Assembly: GCF_003054265.1 (NCBI RefSeq)
Contig: NZ_QBKT01000001.1
Span: 124,001 to 188,000, forward strand
Length of the DNA stretch: 64,000 bases
Direction: 5' to 3'
Source of the DNA: Kordia periserrulae
Lineage (GTDB): Bacteria; Bacteroidota; Bacteroidia; Flavobacteriales; Flavobacteriaceae
In this document: one piece after another, positions 20,334 through 63,966 of the stretch
Position numbering within the stretch: position 1 is the first letter of the stretch
Layout: every line of letters begins with the position of its first letter
The notes under the pieces: model-generated
The model's input: only the letters and a program-made list of their open reading frames with translations
What the model was told of the DNA's origin: nothing
Databases searched by the model: none
Program-made: the position numbers and the translations under genes

Positions 20334-21092
20334 ATGAGAGGAACTAATGTAAAAATCAGATTGTTGATTGGACTCGCCATTGTCGCTTTTGCTTTTTTTA
20401 AAAAATGTGCCAATCGTGAAATGAACGAATATACAGGTCGCACACAAACCATCAGTATGACCACCGAAGAAGAAATTGCGCTTGGGTTTCAAAATAGAGA
20501 AGCCATGGCGCGACAATATGGCGGTTTGTATCCTGATGCTGGCGCGCAAGCACGGGTAGATATGATTGGTGAAAAACTGGTAAACATGAGCATGGCAAAA
20601 GAATCGGGCTATCAATTTGAATTTCATTTGTTGGCGGACAATCGTTCTATAAACGCCTTTGCATTGCCTGGCGGACAAATTTTTATCACAAATGCACTTT
20701 ACAGCAAACTCGATGATGCACAATTGGCAGGCGTTCTCGGTCATGAAATTGGTCATGTGTTGGGAAGACATTCTGCGGAGCGCATTGCAGAATCTGATTT
20801 TTGGCAAACGGTCACTACAGGCGCTTCTGTTGGTGCTGATATGGGAAATATGGTCGGAAGCATCGGACAACAAAAATTACTAAAAAATGGACGTGAAGAT
20901 GAATTGGAAAGTGACAAACTTGGCGTAGCATTGATGATTTATGCAGGTTATGACCCTGAAGCTATGATTGAAGTGATGAAAATCTTGAAAGCTGCCGTAG
21001 GACCTAACAGAGTTCCTGAGTTTCAAAGTACACATCCCGATCCTGAAAATAGAATTCAGAAAATCAAAGAAGTAATTGAAGAGTATCAGTGA
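20334..21092 (+). CDS. M48 family metallopeptidase (periplasmic BepA/LoiP-like)
   Basis: Membrane-attached zinc peptidase, 252 residues. One N-terminal hydrophobic segment (about 8-22, IRLLIGLAIVAFAFF), then the catalytic motif HEIGH at 137-141 and the third ligand in DELESDKLGV (E192). SINAFALPGGQIFITNAL is the diagnostic M48 strand. A Cys follows the hydrophobic segment (KKCAN), so lipidation is possible but the lipobox is poor. The family handles quality control of envelope proteins. It starts 39 bases after the M15 gene on the same strand. Confidence 0.88.
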   Translation: MRGTNVKIRLLIGLAIVAFAFFKKCANREMNEYTGRTQTISMTTEEEIALGFQNREAMARQYGGLYPDAGAQARVDMIGEKLVNMSMAKESGYQFEFHLLADNRSINAFALPGGQIFITNALYSKLDDAQLAGVLGHEIGHVLGRHSAERIAESDFWQTVTTGASVGADMGNMVGSIGQQKLLKNGREDELESDKLGVALMIYAGYDPEAMIEVMKILKAAVGPNRVPEFQSTHPDPENRIQKIKEVIEEYQ

Positions 21093-21102
21093 TTTTTTTT
21101 GG

Positions 21103-21229
21103 GTGTTTGATGCTAGGTGTTAAGTGTTGGGTGTTGGGTCGCTTCGCTTTTTGTTTTTTTGTTTTTTGTTTTTCGTCGATTTGTCAATTCGTCTTGACTC
21201 TTGACTCTTGATTCTTGATTCTTGTTTCT
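21103..21229. repeat. Heptamer-mosaic intergenic repeat, locus 2
   Basis: Units in phase: GTGTTTG, ATGCTAG, GTGTTAA, GTGTTGG, GTGTTGG, then GTCGCTTCGCTTTTT, a T-rich spacer with GATTTGTCAATTCG, then CTTGACT, CTTGACT, CTTGATT, CTTGATT (21193 on). Same block order as the locus at 1341-1493. Confidence 0.85.
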
Positions 21230-26270: not shown

Positions 26271-26285
26271 CTAGCAAATACATTG

Positions 26286-27050
26286 GTGAGAACACTTTTT
26301 AAATACATATTAAATACGATTCCGCGACCATTTTTAATTAAAATGAGTTATTGGATTCGTCCTATCATCACATTTGTATTAAAAGGAAACAGTTATACTG
26401 ATCCAATTGATGGCAAAAGTTTTCGAACGTTTTTATCGTATGGATATGCTATTAATCGCGAAAATGCCTTGTCGCCCAGTACGTTCTCGTTAGAACGCCA
26501 TCGATTGTTATGGTTGTATTTACAAAACGAAACGGACTTTTTTACCAAACCACAAAAAGTACTGCACTTTGCACCTGAACAAGCCTTTTATAAGCGTTTT
26601 CGCAATCAGGAGAACTTAGATTATACGACGACCGATTTGTATTCGCCGCTTGCAGATGTGAAAGCTGATATTTGCAATTTGCCTTTTGAAGATGATGCTT
26701 TTGATACGATTTTATGCAATCACGTGTTGGAACATATTCCTGATGATACTAAAGCTATGCAAGAATTGTATCGCGTCCTAAAACCAGGTGGTATGGCGAT
26801 TTTGCAAATTCCACAAGATTTGGAGCGCGAAACTACGTTTGAAGACGATTCGGTCACCGATAAAAAAGAACGCACGAAAATTTTCGGTCAATACGATCAT
26901 GTACGTGTGTATGGATTGGACTTTTTTGACAAACTTCGCAACGTCGGATTTACCGTAAAAGAAGAGGATTACACTGCAAATTTCACTCCCGAAGAAATTG
27001 AACGCTATTGTTTGATGGAAGGTGAAATTATTCCTGTTTGTTTTAAGTAG
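26286..27050 (+). CDS. Class I SAM-dependent methyltransferase (Methyltransf_11)
   Basis: 254 residues. The methyltransferase fold includes KADICNLPFEDDAFDTILCNHVLEHIPDD (motif II with the LEH of Methyltransf_11), LYRVLKPGGMAILQIP (motif III), and a C-terminal YDHVRVYGLDF. Motif I is atypical: KVLHFAPEQAFYKRF in place of LDxGxGxG, as in the group of Flavobacteriia homologues with an N-terminal RPFLIKMSYWIRP segment. The start is GTG at 26286 (a TTG one codon upstream is the alternative); there is no suitable ATG before residue 20. Substrate unknown. Confidence 0.8.
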   Translation: MRTLFKYILNTIPRPFLIKMSYWIRPIITFVLKGNSYTDPIDGKSFRTFLSYGYAINRENALSPSTFSLERHRLLWLYLQNETDFFTKPQKVLHFAPEQAFYKRFRNQENLDYTTTDLYSPLADVKADICNLPFEDDAFDTILCNHVLEHIPDDTKAMQELYRVLKPGGMAILQIPQDLERETTFEDDSVTDKKERTKIFGQYDHVRVYGLDFFDKLRNVGFTVKEEDYTANFTPEEIERYCLMEGEIIPVCFK

Positions 27051-27056
27051 GTATTT

Positions 27057-27290
27057 TTAGGTTTTGGGTTTTGGGTGTTAGGTCGCTGGCGCTTTTTGGC
27101 TGTTGGCTGTTGGCTGTTGGCTGTTGGCTGTTGGCTGTTGGCTGTTGGCTGTTAAAGATACTTTTTCATTTTAGATTTTGAGTTTTACATTTTAAATTTT
27201 GTTATTCGTTATTTGTTATTCGTTGCTGGTTGCTGGTTGCTGGTTGCTGGTTGCTGGTTGCTGGTTAAAAGTACTTTTTTAATTTGTATT
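27057..27290. repeat. Heptamer-mosaic intergenic repeat, locus 3
   Basis: Order: GGTTTTG units; GTCGCTGGCGCTTTTT; eight perfect copies of GGCTGTT (27098-27153); a 51-base spacer with TTTTGAGTTTTACATTTTAAA (27154-27204); three GTTATTC-type units (27201-27221); six perfect copies of GTTGCTG (27222-27263); a short T-rich tail. The spacer recurs twice in the locus at 63450-63765. Confidence 0.9.
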
Positions 27291-34238: not shown

Positions 34239-34958
34239 TTAATTAATTACTTTTGTATTGTTAGCGATTTCTTTTGCTGTACTATTGTCTTGAATAGTTT
34301 CTGTTTGAGCGGTGTTGTCTTTTGCTTCTTCCGCTTCGTCTCCGCCAGTTAACATTCCACCAAAACTCATAAATCCGATAGCCATTAAACCTGTGATGAT
34401 GAAGGTAATTCCCAATCCTCTTAAGGGTGCAGGAACGCTAGAGTATCTGATTTTTTCACGAATTGCTGCAATTGCCAAGATAGCTAAAAACCATCCGATT
34501 CCTGAACCAACTCCGTACGTTGTTGCCAATCCTAAGGTTGCGATTTCGCGAGATTGCATGAATAACGAACCTCCTAAGATAGCACAGTTTACCGCGATTA
34601 ATGGTAAAAAGATACCCAACGAGTTGTATAGTGATGGTGAAAACTTCTCTACAATGATTTCTACTAATTGTACCATGGTTGCAATGGTAGCAATAAACAT
34701 GATAAAGGATAAGAAACTAAGGTCGTAATCCGCATATTCTGCTCCTAACCATGATAAGGCACCAGGTTGTAAGATGTATTGATCTAGCAACCAGTTTAAA
34801 GGTACTGTAATGGCAAGTACAAAGATTACTGCAGCTCCCAATCCGACAGCAGTAGATACTTTTTTAGATACAGCAAGGTACGAACACATTCCTAAGAAGG
34901 TTGCAAATACCATGTTGTCTATGAATATTGATTTGAAAAATAATTCTACGTGTTCCAT
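34239..34958 (-). CDS. nqrE: Na+-translocating NADH:quinone reductase subunit E
   Basis: Hydrophobic membrane subunit of the Na+ pump with about six helices, including the conserved Cys of [18 protein letters not shown] and the CAILGG half ([13 protein letters not shown]); these two Cys positions hold the 2Fe-2S cluster with NqrD. 239 residues, about 35 longer than the classic Vibrio protein because of a polar acidic tail ([15 protein letters not shown] onward) of unknown role. Preceded by the 77-base gap holding a heptamer fold-back, the only wide gap in the operon. Confidence 0.96.
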
Positions 34959-34972
34959 ATTTTTTTGTTTTT

Positions 34973-35035
34973 AGTTGTTTGTTATTTGTTGTTTGATGTT
35001 TCCAACAACCAACAACTAGCAACTGTCAACTAAGT
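34973..35035 (-). repeat. Nine-heptamer fold-back between nqrD and nqrE
   Basis: Exactly 63 bases, nine units on a 7-base beat (plus strand: AGTTGTT, TGTTATT, TGTTGTT, TGATGTT, TCCAACA, ACCAACA, ACTAGCA, ACTGTCA, ACTAAGT). The first half is near-complementary to the second. In the transcript AGTTGCTAGTTG onward can pair with the distal arm for 18 of 23 positions around a 6-base loop. It starts at the nqrD stop codon and ends 14 bases before the nqrE ATG. Confidence 0.7.
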
Positions 35036-35668
35036 TTAGTCTTCGATTAATGCTCTATTTCTTGAACGTTGCACCCAAATAATGATTCCTACCACGATTA
35101 ATGCCATAGGCGATAACAACATGAATCCGTTGTTTTCATAACCGTATGCATATAATCCTGTTTTTGCTACTGGATCACCTAATATTTGTATTCCTAATAA
35201 AGTTCCAGAACCTAGCAACTCTCTAAAGAAACCTACAATGATTAAGATGATAGCGTATCCTAAAGCATTTCCAATTCCATCCAAGAATGATCTCCACGGT
35301 CCATTTCCTAAAGCAAAGGCTTCAAAGCGTCCCATAATGATACAGTTGGTAATAATCAGTCCTACAAAGGCTCCTAGTGTTTTACTCAATTCGTAGGCGT
35401 ATGCTTTTAGTACTTGATCTACAATAATTACTAAGGTTGCTACTACGATTAACTGTACAATGATTCGAATTTTTGAAGGAATAATGTTTCTCATTAATGA
35501 GATAACCACGTTTCCTACTCCCATTACGAAAAGTACGGAGATAGACATTACTATCGAAGCTTCTAATTCTGCTGTAATCGCTAATGCAGAGCAAATTCCT
35601 AATACTTGAATGGTAATAGGGTTGTTGTCTGTTAACGGATCTAAAATTAACTTACTATCTTTTGCCAT
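35036..35668 (-). CDS. nqrD: Na+-translocating NADH:quinone reductase subunit D
   Basis: Integral membrane subunit, 210 residues with about six helices, paralogous to NqrE. The conserved Cys positions are in VLGICSALAIT and LIITNCIIMGRFEAFA, which with NqrE hold the iron-sulfur centre. GNGPWRSFLDGIGNALGY is the typical central loop. Three bases after nqrC, so co-translated. Confidence 0.96.
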   Translation of the reverse strand: MAKDSKLILDPLTDNNPITIQVLGICSALAITAELEASIVMSISVLFVMGVGNVVISLMRNIIPSKIRIIVQLIVVATLVIIVDQVLKAYAYELSKTLGAFVGLIITNCIIMGRFEAFALGNGPWRSFLDGIGNALGYAIILIIVGFFRELLGSGTLLGIQILGDPVAKTGLYAYGYENNGFMLLSPMALIVVGIIIWVQRSRNRALIED

Positions 35669-40556: not shown

Positions 40557-40943
40557 ATGATTCAACAGGTAACGAGAGGCATAAAAATTTCCGTAGAAAC
40601 TAGTTTTGAAGGTACTTTTTTCAAAAACTATAAAATGCATTTTGCGTTTGGTTATCAAATTACGATTGAAAACCAAAGCAAAGATTCTGTGCAATTAACT
40701 TCTAGACATTGGCAAATTTTTGATGCTCTTAACAACATCGAACTTGTAGATGGCGAAGGTGTGATTGGCAAAAAACCTGTCTTAAAACCAGGAGAATCAC
40801 ACACCTATCAATCAGGTTGTTTGCTCGCCTCTCCAATCGGTGCCATGCGTGGACATTACAATATGGTGAACTTTACAACGACCAAAAAATTCCGAGTTTT
40901 CATTCCGACATTTAAGTTGTGTGCGCCTTTTGCGTTGAATTAG
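40557..40943 (+). CDS. apaG: ApaG (Co2+/Mg2+ efflux-associated) domain protein
   Basis: 128-residue single-domain beta-sandwich of fibronectin-III type. The family strands are visible: GIKISVETSFE, HFAFGYQITIENQSKDSVQLTSRHWQIFDA, VIGKKPVLKPGESHTYQSGCLLASPIGAMRGHYNMV. ApaG homologues are tied to Co2+ resistance and polyphosphate binding in enterobacteria, but the molecular role is unsettled. Single gene followed by degenerate heptamer repeats. Confidence 0.9.
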   Translation: MIQQVTRGIKISVETSFEGTFFKNYKMHFAFGYQITIENQSKDSVQLTSRHWQIFDALNNIELVDGEGVIGKKPVLKPGESHTYQSGCLLASPIGAMRGHYNMVNFTTTKKFRVFIPTFKLCAPFALN

Positions 40944-41180
40944 GTGTTGGATGATAGGTGTTAGGTCGCTTCGCTTTTAGGTTTTGATTCCGTATTATAC
41001 TTTATTTTCTCTCTTTATTTAATCGCTAGATTTCTCTTGTCGATTTTTTGTATTTTTATGTTGAATTTTAAATGTTGGATGTTGAGTTGTTGTTCTTTTT
41101 CAACATCAATACTAAAATACCAAAGCGTCAGCGTATCTAACCATCTAAAAATCTAAGCGCAGCAAAGTCAAGTCTAAACA
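40944..41180. repeat. Mixed heptamer and octamer repeat between apaG and the HTH regulator
   Basis: First, five 7-base units (GTGTTGG, ATGATAG, GTGTTAG, GTCGCTT, CGCTTTT), then a degenerate spacer with TTTTATGTTGAATTTTAAATG, then an 8-base beat: GTATCTAA, CCATCTAA, AAATCTAA, GCGCAGCA, AAGTCAAG (about 41138-41177). The octamer part resembles the element at 54080-54267. Confidence 0.6.
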
Positions 41181-60906: not shown

Positions 60907-63447
60907 TTGAAATCCTTTTTAGCAAAAATATCATTATTTATTATAATTGGCGTGTACGTTACTTCTTGTAATTCTATCAAATATGTAAAAGAGGATGAAT
61001 TACTGTTGACGAAGAACGAATTAACGGTCAACGGAGAAGTGTCTAGCGACCCTGATGCGTTGAGTCAAATGTACCAAAAACCGAACAGTCGACTTTTAAA
61101 TTTTCCGCTGCGACTGCACATTTATAATTTAGCTGAAAAAAATTCTGATTCTACCTATCAAGCTTGGCTCGATAGAAACCCGAAACGCCGTCAACGTTTG
61201 AATAACGCGCTTTCAAAAAAGCAAGTTCGCGAGCTTGGAAATTACAAAACGGGCTTTAATAAATGGTTGCAAAAAACAGGAGAAGCGCCTGTCATTATCG
61301 ATCAAAAGAAAACCAAAAAAACGACCAATCGACTCAAAGTATATTATCAAAATAAAGGCTATTTTAATGCGAATGCCGATTTTGAAGTGATTCCTTCCGA
61401 AAAAGAACGTCGCGCAAGCATTCAATATCGTGTCGATACCGGAAATCCGTATTTTTTAGACAGTATTCAAGTTGCTATCAAATCACCTGATTTAGATTCT
61501 ATTTACAATTTATACAAAGATGCATCATTCTTAAAGCAAGGAAAACAGTACAATACGGGCGATTTTTACGACGAACGCGAACGCTTGACAGTACTTTTTA
61601 GAAATTCGGGAATTTATAATTTTCAGTTAAACTCTATCAAACCTACAGTCGGAATTGATTCTACAGGAAACGATTATAAACTACCTGTTTTATTAAAGAT
61701 TAATAATTTGAACGAGCGCAAAGGCGATAGCATTGTGGAAACAGAATACAAAGTGCATCGCATTAAAGAAGTAAATATTTATACCGATTATACGTTTGCC
61801 AATTCGCGTTCAAAATTTATTGATTCGGTTCAGTATGACGATTTTACAATTTATTCAAATGATAAATTGCGTTTTCGTCCAAAAGCGATTACAGATGCTG
61901 TATTTATGCATGCTGGCGATATTTATCGCGACAACGACCGAACACTTACGTACAAGCACATCAACAACTTGCGAACGTTTAAATATCCGAACATTCAGTA
62001 CGAATATGCCAATGACAGTCTGACGGATTTGATTGCGAATATTTATTTGCAACCACGAAAGAAGTTCTCTTTAGGTTTTGATATTGACATTACGCATTCC
62101 AACATTCAGGATTACGGTTTTTCGTTTAGTACGTCGTTGATTAGCAGAAATGTTTTTCGCGGTGCAGAAACGCTCGAAATTGCTGCTAGAGGAACTTTAG
62201 GAGCATCGAGAGATGTGGCCGATTCGGAAGACCAATTCTTTAATATTGCGGAGATTGGCGTCGATTTTAGATTGAATTTCCCGCGATTTTTCTTTCCGTT
62301 CAATACTGACAAAATTATTCCGAAATACATGTTGCCAACCACTGTTTTATCGCTCGGAACGAGCAATCAGCAGAATATTGGACTCGACAGACAAACCTTT
62401 ACAGGATTTATTCGCTACAACTGGCAACCTACCAAAAAGAACACGTTTAACTTGGAATTGTTCAATCTGCAATTCATCCGAAACCTGAATACGAGCAATT
62501 ATTTTAACGTATACACCAGTTCGTACGACCGATTAAACTCCGTGGCGCAAAGCTCCAATTATATTGATAATGACGAATCGCTCAATATCGCTTCTGGACA
62601 AACCGACCAGTTTATCGAAGACGTAATTTCTAACAACTTTGAAGTCACGCCAAGCGAGCTTTCTACCGTTTTGAGTGTGAATCAGCGAAAATTTCGATTG
62701 ACGCAAGACAACTTGATTGCAGCTTCAAAAATCAACTTTCTCCATAACAGCAAAGAAAACATTGCCGACAATACGTTCTTTCAGTTTAGAACCGAATTGG
62801 AATTGGCGGGTAACTTTTTATCTGCGATTGCAGGCGTGGCGAATTTGGAAAAAGATAGCAGAGGAAAATACGAGCTTTTTGGAGTTCCGTTTACGCAATA
62901 CATCAAAACGGAATTTGACTATATCAAACACTGGGAACTCTCACGAAAAGAAGATGTGTTGGCATTTCGCACCTTTTTCGGAATTGCAATTCCGTATGGA
63001 AACTCTGAAAACATTCCGTTTGCTCGAAGTTATTTTGGCGGTGGTTCTAATGACAATCGCGCGTGGGCAGCGTATCAGTTAGGTCCTGGACGTTCGGCGA
63101 GTCTACTCGATTTCAACGAAGCCAATTTAAAACTTACCACCAATTTGGAATATCGTTTTGATTTGTTCGGAAGCTTTAAAGGCGCGCTTTTCGCGGATGC
63201 TGGAAATATTTGGAATGTATTTGATGATATAGAAGACGAAGACCAAAAATTCAACGGATTTGATTCGCTTCGCGACATTGCCTTAGGAACAGGTTTCGGT
63301 TTGCGCTACGACTTTAGCTTCTTCGTGTTGCGTTTTGATATTGGTTTCAAAACCTACGATCCTGCCTATCCGATTGGCAATCGTTGGTTTAATGATTACA
63401 ATTTTGGAAACGCGGTCTATAATATTGGGATTAATTATCCTTTCTAA
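60907..63447 (+). CDS. tamL: TamL: lipid-anchored TamA/BamA-family outer-membrane assembly factor
   Basis: 846 residues. The start is TTG at 60907; it is the only start that keeps the lipoprotein signal (FIIIGVYVTSCNSIK, Cys near residue 21), since the next ATG is at residue 55. POTRA-type segments (about 100-400, LKVYYQNKGYFNANADFEV, IQYRVDTGNPYFLDSI, ERLTVLFRNSGIYNF) precede a 16-stranded BamA-type barrel with the family loop-6 motif and last strand FGNAVYNIGINYPF. TamL is the Bacteroidota lipoprotein form that works with TamB to insert outer-membrane proteins. Divergent from the TrmH-type gene. Confidence 0.9.
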   Translation: MKSFLAKISLFIIIGVYVTSCNSIKYVKEDELLLTKNELTVNGEVSSDPDALSQMYQKPNSRLLNFPLRLHIYNLAEKNSDSTYQAWLDRNPKRRQRLNNALSKKQVRELGNYKTGFNKWLQKTGEAPVIIDQKKTKKTTNRLKVYYQNKGYFNANADFEVIPSEKERRASIQYRVDTGNPYFLDSIQVAIKSPDLDSIYNLYKDASFLKQGKQYNTGDFYDERERLTVLFRNSGIYNFQLNSIKPTVGIDSTGNDYKLPVLLKINNLNERKGDSIVETEYKVHRIKEVNIYTDYTFANSRSKFIDSVQYDDFTIYSNDKLRFRPKAITDAVFMHAGDIYRDNDRTLTYKHINNLRTFKYPNIQYEYANDSLTDLIANIYLQPRKKFSLGFDIDITHSNIQDYGFSFSTSLISRNVFRGAETLEIAARGTLGASRDVADSEDQFFNIAEIGVDFRLNFPRFFFPFNTDKIIPKYMLPTTVLSLGTSNQQNIGLDRQTFTGFIRYNWQPTKKNTFNLELFNLQFIRNLNTSNYFNVYTSSYDRLNSVAQSSNYIDNDESLNIASGQTDQFIEDVISNNFEVTPSELSTVLSVNQRKFRLTQDNLIAASKINFLHNSKENIADNTFFQFRTELELAGNFLSAIAGVANLEKDSRGKYELFGVPFTQYIKTEFDYIKHWELSRKEDVLAFRTFFGIAIPYGNSENIPFARSYFGGGSNDNRAWAAYQLGPGRSASLLDFNEANLKLTTNLEYRFDLFGSFKGALFADAGNIWNVFDDIEDEDQKFNGFDSLRDIALGTGFGLRYDFSFFVLRFDIGFKTYDPAYPIGNRWFNDYNFGNAVYNIGINYPF

Positions 63448-63449
63448 TT

Positions 63450-63765
63450 GGGTTTTGGGTGTTGGGTTTTGGGTGTTAGGTTTTTGGTGTTGGGTTGCTG
63501 GTTGCTGGTTGCTGGTTGCTGGTTGCTGGTTGCTGATGAAAATACTTTTTAATTTTATATTTTGAGTTTTACATTTTAAATTTCGTTATTCGTTATTCGT
63601 TATTCGTTATTCGTTATTCGCTAATTTTTCACTCTTAACTATTCACTCATAACTTTTAACTTGATTACTGATTACTGATTACTGGTTGCTGGTTGCTGGT
63701 TGCTGGTTGCTGGTGAAAATACTTTTTAATTTTACATTTTGAGTTTTACATTTTAAATTTCGTTA
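63450..63765. repeat. Heptamer-mosaic intergenic repeat, locus 4 (the largest)
   Basis: Order: GGTTTTG/GGTGTTG units; six perfect GTTGCTG copies (63494-63535); a 51-base spacer (63538-63588) with TTTTGAGTTTTACATTTTAAA; five perfect GTTATTC copies (63585-63619); a stretch of CACTCTTAACTATT type; three TGATTAC copies (63662-63682); four TGGTTGC copies (63683-63710); the same 51-base spacer again (63715-63765), with one substitution. Confidence 0.9.
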
Positions 63766-63966
63766 AAAGGCAAGTGATTCTCGATAGAAAATTTGTATCG
63801 AGATGTACTTTCAAGTTCCATATCAATTTCAAATTCAACTTCAAGTTCAAATTCCAACAACACTAAAACGTTTGCGCCCACAAACAACTAAAAATGAACG
63901 CAGAACTGCATAAAAACTCACTACAATTTTATTACATTTGTAATCCAAACAAAAAAACCAAAGACG
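63766..63966. other. Rest of the gap upstream of the probable aldolase gene
   Basis: The first part has a 12-base-spaced TTCAAGTTC/TTCAAATTC cluster (about 63808-63860) on a 6-base beat. The second part is AT-rich with the promoter box 63933-63940. No gene on either strand. Confidence 0.5.
63933..63940 (+). promoter_or_regulatory. Candidate -7 promoter box for the probable aldolase gene
   Basis: TACATTTG matches TAnnTTTG, 26 bases before the ATG at 63967. Confidence 0.45.

Follow-up and report, generated by a model that had tools for sequence, protein, structure and literature searches.

Tandem heptamers are the units of the STRR repeats of heterocystous cyanobacteria. An initial annotation of the DNA analyzed here likened its arrays to these repeats; tandem heptamers occur in both, and the host phylum differs. 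As a lead this was fair, although more closely related repeats have been published (PMC4679880, PMC4060949). The annotation also knew of no named class in Bacteroidota. We likewise found no name; however, heptamer repeats have already been published, Bacteroidetes included (PMC4679880, PMC4692102, PMC4060949), and they are therefore a known kind of sequence.

TAACTGA repeats are described in Beggiatoaceae, Cyanobacteria and five Bacteroidetes, and in Gramella, Aequorivita and Elizabethkingia other heptamers lie in the same intergenic regions (PMC4679880). In Guaymas 'Maribeggiatoa', Table 1 of that paper gives 147 of 170 TAACTGA sets as directed at start codons and 12 at stop codons; on our own reading, these directions would correspond to the polarity reported below, pointing at the gene edge. 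The Kordia arrays resemble these repeats in being heptameric, intergenic and multi-copy, with extra heptamers mixed in as in some Bacteroidetes. By contrast, the TAACTGA repeats as presented there have one dominant word and lie mostly before start codons, whereas the DNA analyzed here uses 33 words, mostly after stops, and has a common core. TAACTGA accounts for just 1 of 99 intergenic runs (L183:2453-2509, 8.1 copies, 3 nt beyond a stop codon), and the nearest gene edge is a stop codon for 43 of 65 independent arrays and a start codon for 22. Xanthomonas and Nostoc carry GGGAATC and GGGGA(C/T)T repeats, which share with the Kordia arrays inverted pairs and a length that varies between species (PMC4692102). 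In that account they are G-quadruplex words of one type per organism; the DNA analyzed here has many words plus a core, and GGG runs are missing from most of the 33. A survey of simple sequence repeats scored heptamer repeats (7n3) above normal in Bacteroidetes (0.75; PMC4060949 Table 2). It counts perfect repeats; mosaics, core and gene-edge polarity are features of the present arrays. The mosaic around a common core and the polarity at gene edges look new. Where these publications treat the repeats, unit length and any role are left unexplained.

Seven-base arrays in the window

The window is a 64,000-nucleotide stretch (contig C1, 124001-188000) of a Kordia periserrulae draft genome of 4.73 Mb in 38 contigs, hereafter the host. 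Arrays were present at every place that the initial annotation named, including two loci (34964-35035 and 40944-41090) that are degenerate, as it had claimed. The parts are as follows.

1341-1386, + strand: GTGTTGG-type array (exact run GGTGTTG, 3.4 copies, 1341-1364), 3 nt after the stop of a methyltransferase gene (679-1338)
1422-1493, + strand: CTTGACT/CTTGATT array (exact runs TCTTGAC, 2.9 copies, 1422-1441, and TCTTGAT, 4.6 copies, 1450-1481)
21099-21139, + strand: TTGGGTG-type heptamers (exact run GTGTTGG, 2.3 copies, 21124-21139), after the stop of an M48-peptidase gene (20334-21092)
21138-21147, + strand: GTCGCTTCGC block
21155-21173, + strand: TTTTTTG array, 2.7 copies
21192-21229, + strand: CTTGACT/CTTGATT array (exact runs TCTTGAC, 2.9 copies, 21192-21211, and TCTTGAT, 2.7 copies, 21206-21224)
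27060-27076, + strand: GGTTTTG array, 10 nt past the stop of a methyltransferase-like gene (26283-27050)
27082-27092, + strand: GTCGCTGGCGC block, between arrays
27096-27153, + strand: TTGGCTG array, 8.3 perfect copies; other words occupy the same place in two relatives, G010 and G009
27155-27199, + strand: copy of an AT-rich core, 93% identity to copy 1
27201-27224, + strand: GTTATTC-type array
27222-27266, + strand: GTTGCTG array, 6.4 copies
34964-35001, + strand: degenerate TTTGTTG array reading away from a minus-strand Rnf/Nqr-family gene (34239-34958), 6 nt from its start codon
35003-35031, - strand: degenerate GTTGTTG-type words that run away from the stop codon of gene 35036-35668
40944-40974, + strand: degenerate GTGTTGG/GTGTTAG words, then GTCGCTTCGC, directly after the stop of an ApaG-domain gene (40557-40943)
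63448-63496, + strand: degenerate TTGGGTT/TTGGGTG-type heptamers, 1 nt after the stop of an Omp85-family gene (60907-63447)
63493-63535, + strand: GTTGCTG array (exact run GGTTGCT), 6.1 exact copies
63536-63584, + strand: AT-rich core, copy 1 (AAAATACTTTTT...TTTTAAATTTC), dispersed in Kordia
63582-63620, + strand: GTTATTC array (exact run TTCGTTA), 5.6 exact copies, adjoining core copy 1 on its 3' side
63662-63684, + strand: TGATTAC array, 3.3 copies, passing in phase into the next array
63682-63714, + strand: second GTTGCTG array (exact run CTGGTTG), 4.7 copies
63714-63761, + strand: AT-rich core, copy 2, 98% identity to copy 1

Judged by eye, the arrays at 34964-35001 and 35003-35031 face each other in an inverted arrangement. 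The neighboring genes of the window loci (two methyltransferases, M48 peptidase, Omp85-family, ApaG-domain, Rnf/Nqr subunits) have no common theme, and Rfam at gathering scores returned one tRNA in the window and no known RNA family at the arrays. Beside the last array region, at 63809-63856, lies a separate imperfect repeat with 18-base and 6-base periods (TTCAAATTCCACATCAA-like), which is not heptameric.

The seven-base beat is specific and intergenic

We surveyed self-matches by lag in the window and 40 evenly spread 20-kb stretches of the host (864 kb, 18% of the genome, about 100 kb of it intergenic). Exact runs of at least 14 matches, which at lag 7 correspond to at least three copies, numbered 25 in intergenic DNA versus 2 in coding DNA at lag 7. 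Lags 4-6 and 8-12 gave 0-2 intergenic runs, and three order-3 simulations gave none at lag 7. The lag-7 excess that the initial annotation had proposed as a check is thus present across this sample, and so are the intergenic placement and the beat that it described. At a threshold of 12 matches, the intergenic DNA of the window held 12 lag-7 runs, compared with a mean of 0.01 and a maximum of 1 in 200 order-2 simulations. With a unit of exactly seven bases above chance, the arrays belong among bacterial heptanucleotide simple sequence repeats. At the same threshold, a pooled count over host stretches (20 of them picked for holding arrays) and samples of three other Kordia genomes (G009, G002, G010) gave 130 lag-7 runs, compared with 9 for lag 8 and 0-2 for lags 5, 6 and 9-12. 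By place, 99 of 108 runs of at least 12 matches were intergenic, 4 lay in genes and 5 at stretch ends. The 99 intergenic runs use 33 words, consistent with the described combination of several word families. Perfect runs of 4-8 copies exist as reported, but several families have just 2-3 exact copies. Outside exact runs, array-bearing regions retained a decayed beat, with a lag-7 identity of 0.355 compared to 0.305 in other intergenic DNA; lag 8 was raised too (0.333 versus 0.308).

Different words had been said to lie in phase. This was so for 15 of 16 pairs of abutting or nearly abutting words but for only 3 of 10 array pairs at least 8 nt apart; the common beat is therefore strict only locally. 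Higher-order units of 14 bases made of two words, such as CTTGGCT-CTTGATT, also occur. Seven-base arrays are thus real and strong in this genome, and sparser in the three other sampled Kordia. Arrays lie within about 0.3 kb of contig ends at the starts of contigs C8, C12 and C16 and at the end of C9. Long arrays are the probable cause of such breaks in the assembly, and their copy numbers are accordingly uncertain. Beyond what the initial annotation contained, the arrays have an outward polarity, a TTG/TTA constraint, a conserved core flanked by many of them, and words that are replaced between species.

Arrays recur around a conserved AT-rich core

The core is about 48 nt long and itself follows the seven-base beat (AAAATAC TTTTTCA TTTTACA TTTTGAG TTTTACA TTTTAAA TTTC). 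A local search returned 28 intergenic matches, weak ones included. By eye, a heptamer array lies directly 5' of the core in at least 10 of the 28, with GTTGGCT, GTTGTCT, GTTGTGT, GTTGCTG, GTTAGCT, GTTGTCG, GTTGGGT or ATTAGGG as the word, and several core copies run on into GTTATTC or GATATTC. The recurring layout is a variable array, the conserved AT-rich core and a GTTATTC-type array. On its 5' side the core faces the end of a gene in 16 of the 28 cases and the start of one in 12, indicating that the core, taken by itself, is not tied to stop codons. In a second layout, GTGTTGG-type words are followed by GTCGCTTCGC, with CTTGACT-type words further out; in a random sample of the host, GTGTTGG preceded GTCGC in all four regions containing that sequence and preceded CTTGACT in all four containing that word.

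We scored up to 40 candidates per genome for a 62-nt piece holding the core, leaving out G010. The piece had 21 matches in the host; the nine other Kordia genomes scored had 1-27 apiece (a single weak one in G007), and two of five genomes of other families gave 4 and 2 weak matches. A second spacer had 8 matches in the host and 1-10 in five of the nine other Kordia. At L436 (G000:C2:505000-524900), long intergenic mosaics contain blocks of about 170 nt (GTTGTCAGTTGGTCGC... plus heptamer arrays) that recur several times. One intergenic region of G006 (L451, about 528-1545) holds a core variant specific to that genome in at least five copies; these are spaced about 230-250 nt apart and separated by GTTATTC- and TTGTTGA-like words.

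A core dispersed in this way, with arrays at its borders, could be a mobile element inserting beside gene ends, and the five or more copies in one region of G006, with a core variant of their own, fit that reading. However, in the loci that we read through we noticed neither terminal inverted repeats nor target duplications, and no transposase linked to them. Moreover, in several, though not all, Kordia species the Omp85-family gene is followed, past its stop codon, by G/T-rich or core-like sequence, which suggests descent for the repeat at that locus. We regard insertion of a mobile element as improbable.

Words turn over between sister species

Past the methyltransferase-like gene at 26283-27050, the host carries GTTGGCT (8.3 copies), G010 carries GTTGTCT and G009 carries GTTGTGT, between similar flanks. 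For five host arrays both flanks fell within the sampled parts of G010, a sample selected partly for synteny, and all five positions were occupied by related sequence in which word or copy number had changed. The initial annotation had called for comparing copy numbers between strains and had allowed for an assembly artifact; related repeats at orthologous places in the separate G010 assembly indicate that the arrays are not simply that. A further testable question is what makes an entire array switch its word between sister species.

The flanks of the arrays bear on their direction of growth. The 14 nt on the gene side were more word-like than those on the far side (0.636 versus 0.531), which weakly suggests growth away from the gene. 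Growth toward the gene predicts decayed copies on the far side, yet the far flank was the more word-like in just 25 of 68 cases (71 runs, not all independent), and we rejected it.

Arrays mostly point outward from gene edges

We took gene edges from a hexamer-based gene call, in which starts are predicted rather than annotated, and reduced the 99 intergenic runs of at least 12 matches to 65 independent arrays by counting each orientation once per intergenic region; the 5 runs at stretch ends and the 4 in genes are left out of this set. An array was scored as outward when its G/T-rich strand begins nearer a gene than it ends. By this definition 52 of 65 arrays were outward (p = 5.8e-7), one of them resting on a gene call corrected by hand, and the median gap to the gene was 46 nt on the 5' side compared to 186 nt on the 3' side. 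The part of the set not chosen by word (the window and the evenly spread stretches) gave 27 of 29 outward (binomial, about 8e-7), compared with 25 of 36 in the part that came from word searches. Outward arrays had a stop as the nearest edge in 34 cases and a start in 18; for inward arrays the numbers were 9 and 4. With the threshold unchanged, the relatives gave 8/9 (G009), 7/7 (G010) and 3/6 (G002) outward, pooled 18/22 (p = 0.0022). At a looser threshold of 10 matches, without the hand correction, the counts were 26/33 in the host, 9/10 in G009 and 6/9 in G002.

Part of this polarity may come from background composition. Array-free start codons have an outward G/T lean of 0.60 in the first 15 nt; past array-free stop codons the outward G/T fraction is 0.504 in the first 30 nt and 0.53-0.55 at 31-60 nt. 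Because stops lack a lean in the first 30 nt, composition could explain the cases at start codons but hardly those at stop codons, and we rejected it as the sole cause. The polarity would also in part follow from the layout, if a G-rich array is always the first block. Between co-directional genes, the G/T strand was the sense strand in 16 cases and the A/C strand in 21, indicating that polarity follows gene edges and not transcript sense.

A scan for GGTTGCTGGTTGCTGGTTGCTGG across bacteria returned at least 118 stretches; the 80 named ones among those listed come from many phyla. Among the matches listed that were intergenic, with a clear strand and neighbors on both sides, 61 of 81 GTTGCTG arrays pointed outward (p = 2.8e-6), with a start as the nearest edge for 31 and a stop for 30. 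For the Bacteroidota among the matches listed, the count was 15 of 23. Arrays of other words in the same listed loci gave 15 of 27 outward and no support for the polarity. A cruder test of the 118 loci listed placed 53 in crude open frames; of the rest, 35 were outward and 10 inward within 60 nt. In the open-licence literature searched, we found no statement of one direction rule for all heptamer repeats. It is possible, if doubtful, that a general rule holds across words and phyla, in which the A/C-rich strand would have its 3' end toward the gene edge and the array would extend away from the gene. If so, a common process aware of gene boundaries would make or keep the arrays, which would then mark gene borders and not be random slippage; should the polarity prove general, it is this finding that specialists would not have expected. 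GTTGCTG arrays also occurred in 19 stretches of a viral collection (L452-L470), one of which, L463, had seven matches.

Nearly all runs contain TTG or TTA

TTG or TTA occurs in 93 of the 99 runs, compared to 70 when letters are shuffled within words (sd 3.8, maximum 83 in 1000 shuffles), and in 60 of the 65 independent arrays versus 46.5 (sd 2.7). Reversed-word controls accompanied the word searches. In K. algicida, the reverse of GTGTTGG gave 9 matches versus 4 for the word itself; in one other search the reversed word gave 15 versus 93; and one further control was uninformative since the word is its own reversal.

For TAACTGA repeats, MacGregor proposed landing strips for a protein (PMC4679880), and the Kordia arrays might serve a protein that binds single-stranded nucleic acid and covers seven bases, for example a cold-shock-domain protein. 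CspB is reported to bind heptamer direct repeats, one protein per heptamer (PMC4679880), and the host encodes a Csp-like protein (L152, 48% identity to CspA). Heptamer repeats score 1.27 in psychrophiles versus 0.48 in mesophiles and 0.00 in hyperthermophiles (PMC4060949 Table 3), which also points this way. Against the landing-strip reading, the consensus of CspB, GTCTTTG or GTYTTTK, was not enriched: 932 and 802 of 1000 letter shuffles were at least as good. On balance we think it improbable that the arrays serve as such landing strips. RNA-binding proteins of the RRM type were rejected as binders, as RRM_1 had no match in the host; the control matched in 2 of 14 genomes. Thermophiles score 0.45 in the same Table 3 (PMC4060949), and the trend from psychrophiles to hyperthermophiles is a possible link with cold.

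Paired words do not generally behave as hairpin arms

Alternatively, each pair of word families might fold into one long G-U rich hairpin in RNA, one family per arm, and so end or protect transcripts. Of seven composites that we folded, three were far more stable than shuffled sequences (z of -4.04, -3.57 and -4.08; 0 of 200 shuffles each), but the other four were not (z from -1.53 to 0.09). Across 35 array pairs, arms from the same locus paired worse than reassigned arms (-3.77 versus -5.55, permutation p 0.994), and the words were no better at self-folding than permutations of their own letters (mean rank 0.63). The arm-reassignment covariation test largely refutes the hairpin as a general rule, and we consider this reading very improbable.

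A proposed origin: slippage-driven mosaics rooted at gene edges

We favor, at about even confidence, the view that the arrays are satellite-like, slippage-driven heptamer mosaics of a Kordia repeat family rooted at gene edges, any function being putative. Arrays would arise and homogenize by slipped replication or unequal exchange in steps of 7, sometimes 14, bases, and the core and blocks would spread between loci by copying; both steps seem likely. That arrays grow outward from the gene edge is a weaker suggestion.

A simpler account is purely neutral slippage, easiest at seven bases, with arrays surviving where they disturb nothing and having neither function nor rooted growth. That polymerase slips most easily by seven bases is an idea of Mrazek 2007, as cited in PMC4679880 and PMC4692102. 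The account agrees with the intergenic placement of 99 of 108 runs, the mixed neighboring genes, words not selected for self-folding and a patchy distribution (arrays of three GTTGCTG units in 5 of 299 genomes of the family, the host included). It also agrees with the preference for convergent regions in the host, where arrays occupy 18 of 85 convergent regions versus 10 of the 218 between co-directional genes and 4 of the 104 between divergent genes. The corresponding counts are 7/33, 5/122 and 0/44 in G009; convergent enrichment was not seen in G002 (2/30, 7/119, 0/39) or G010 (2/32, 10/121, 0/40). However, a polymerase is blind to gene ends, yet 52 of 65 host arrays and, among the matches listed, 61 of 81 GTTGCTG arrays point outward; the TTG/TTA constraint and a core common to many loci need something more. 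Pure slippage is thus a reading that we hold possible but doubt. Polarity, word constraint and attachment to the core raise testable questions: whether a process at gene edges writes the arrays and whether transcript ends are shaped by them.

For the mosaics rooted at gene edges, polarity might be kept because the strand read by transcripts entering the gene from outside is C-rich and G-poor, an idea we rate as rather unlikely. On this idea, and with equally low expectation, Rho could stop incoming antisense transcripts at stop codons, and at start codons the same strand would form an open leader. We rate the satellite-like origin well above this Rho step. The inward-read strand had a median C/G of 3.17 versus 1.00 in controls and exceeded 1.5 in 83% of the 65 arrays. 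Rho utilization sites are described as having C > G over about 78 nt, with cytosines every 11-13 nt (PMC6407284); the inward strand has such an excess of C over G, a comparison that concerns only how it might work. The host genome encodes Rho, and with a C-rich inward strand this makes Rho-dependent termination of transcripts entering a gene possible. Against the Rho step, the C-rich strand lay in the sense direction as commonly as the reverse between co-directional genes (21 and 16), and of the four Kordia genomes sampled the host and G009 have an excess of arrays in convergent regions whereas G002 and G010 have none. Hairpin terminators were fewer beside arrays (2/23, 2/23 and 1/22, compared to 65/292 and 115/522), a difference that is not clearly significant (p = 0.18, 0.18 and 0.06; threshold 9).
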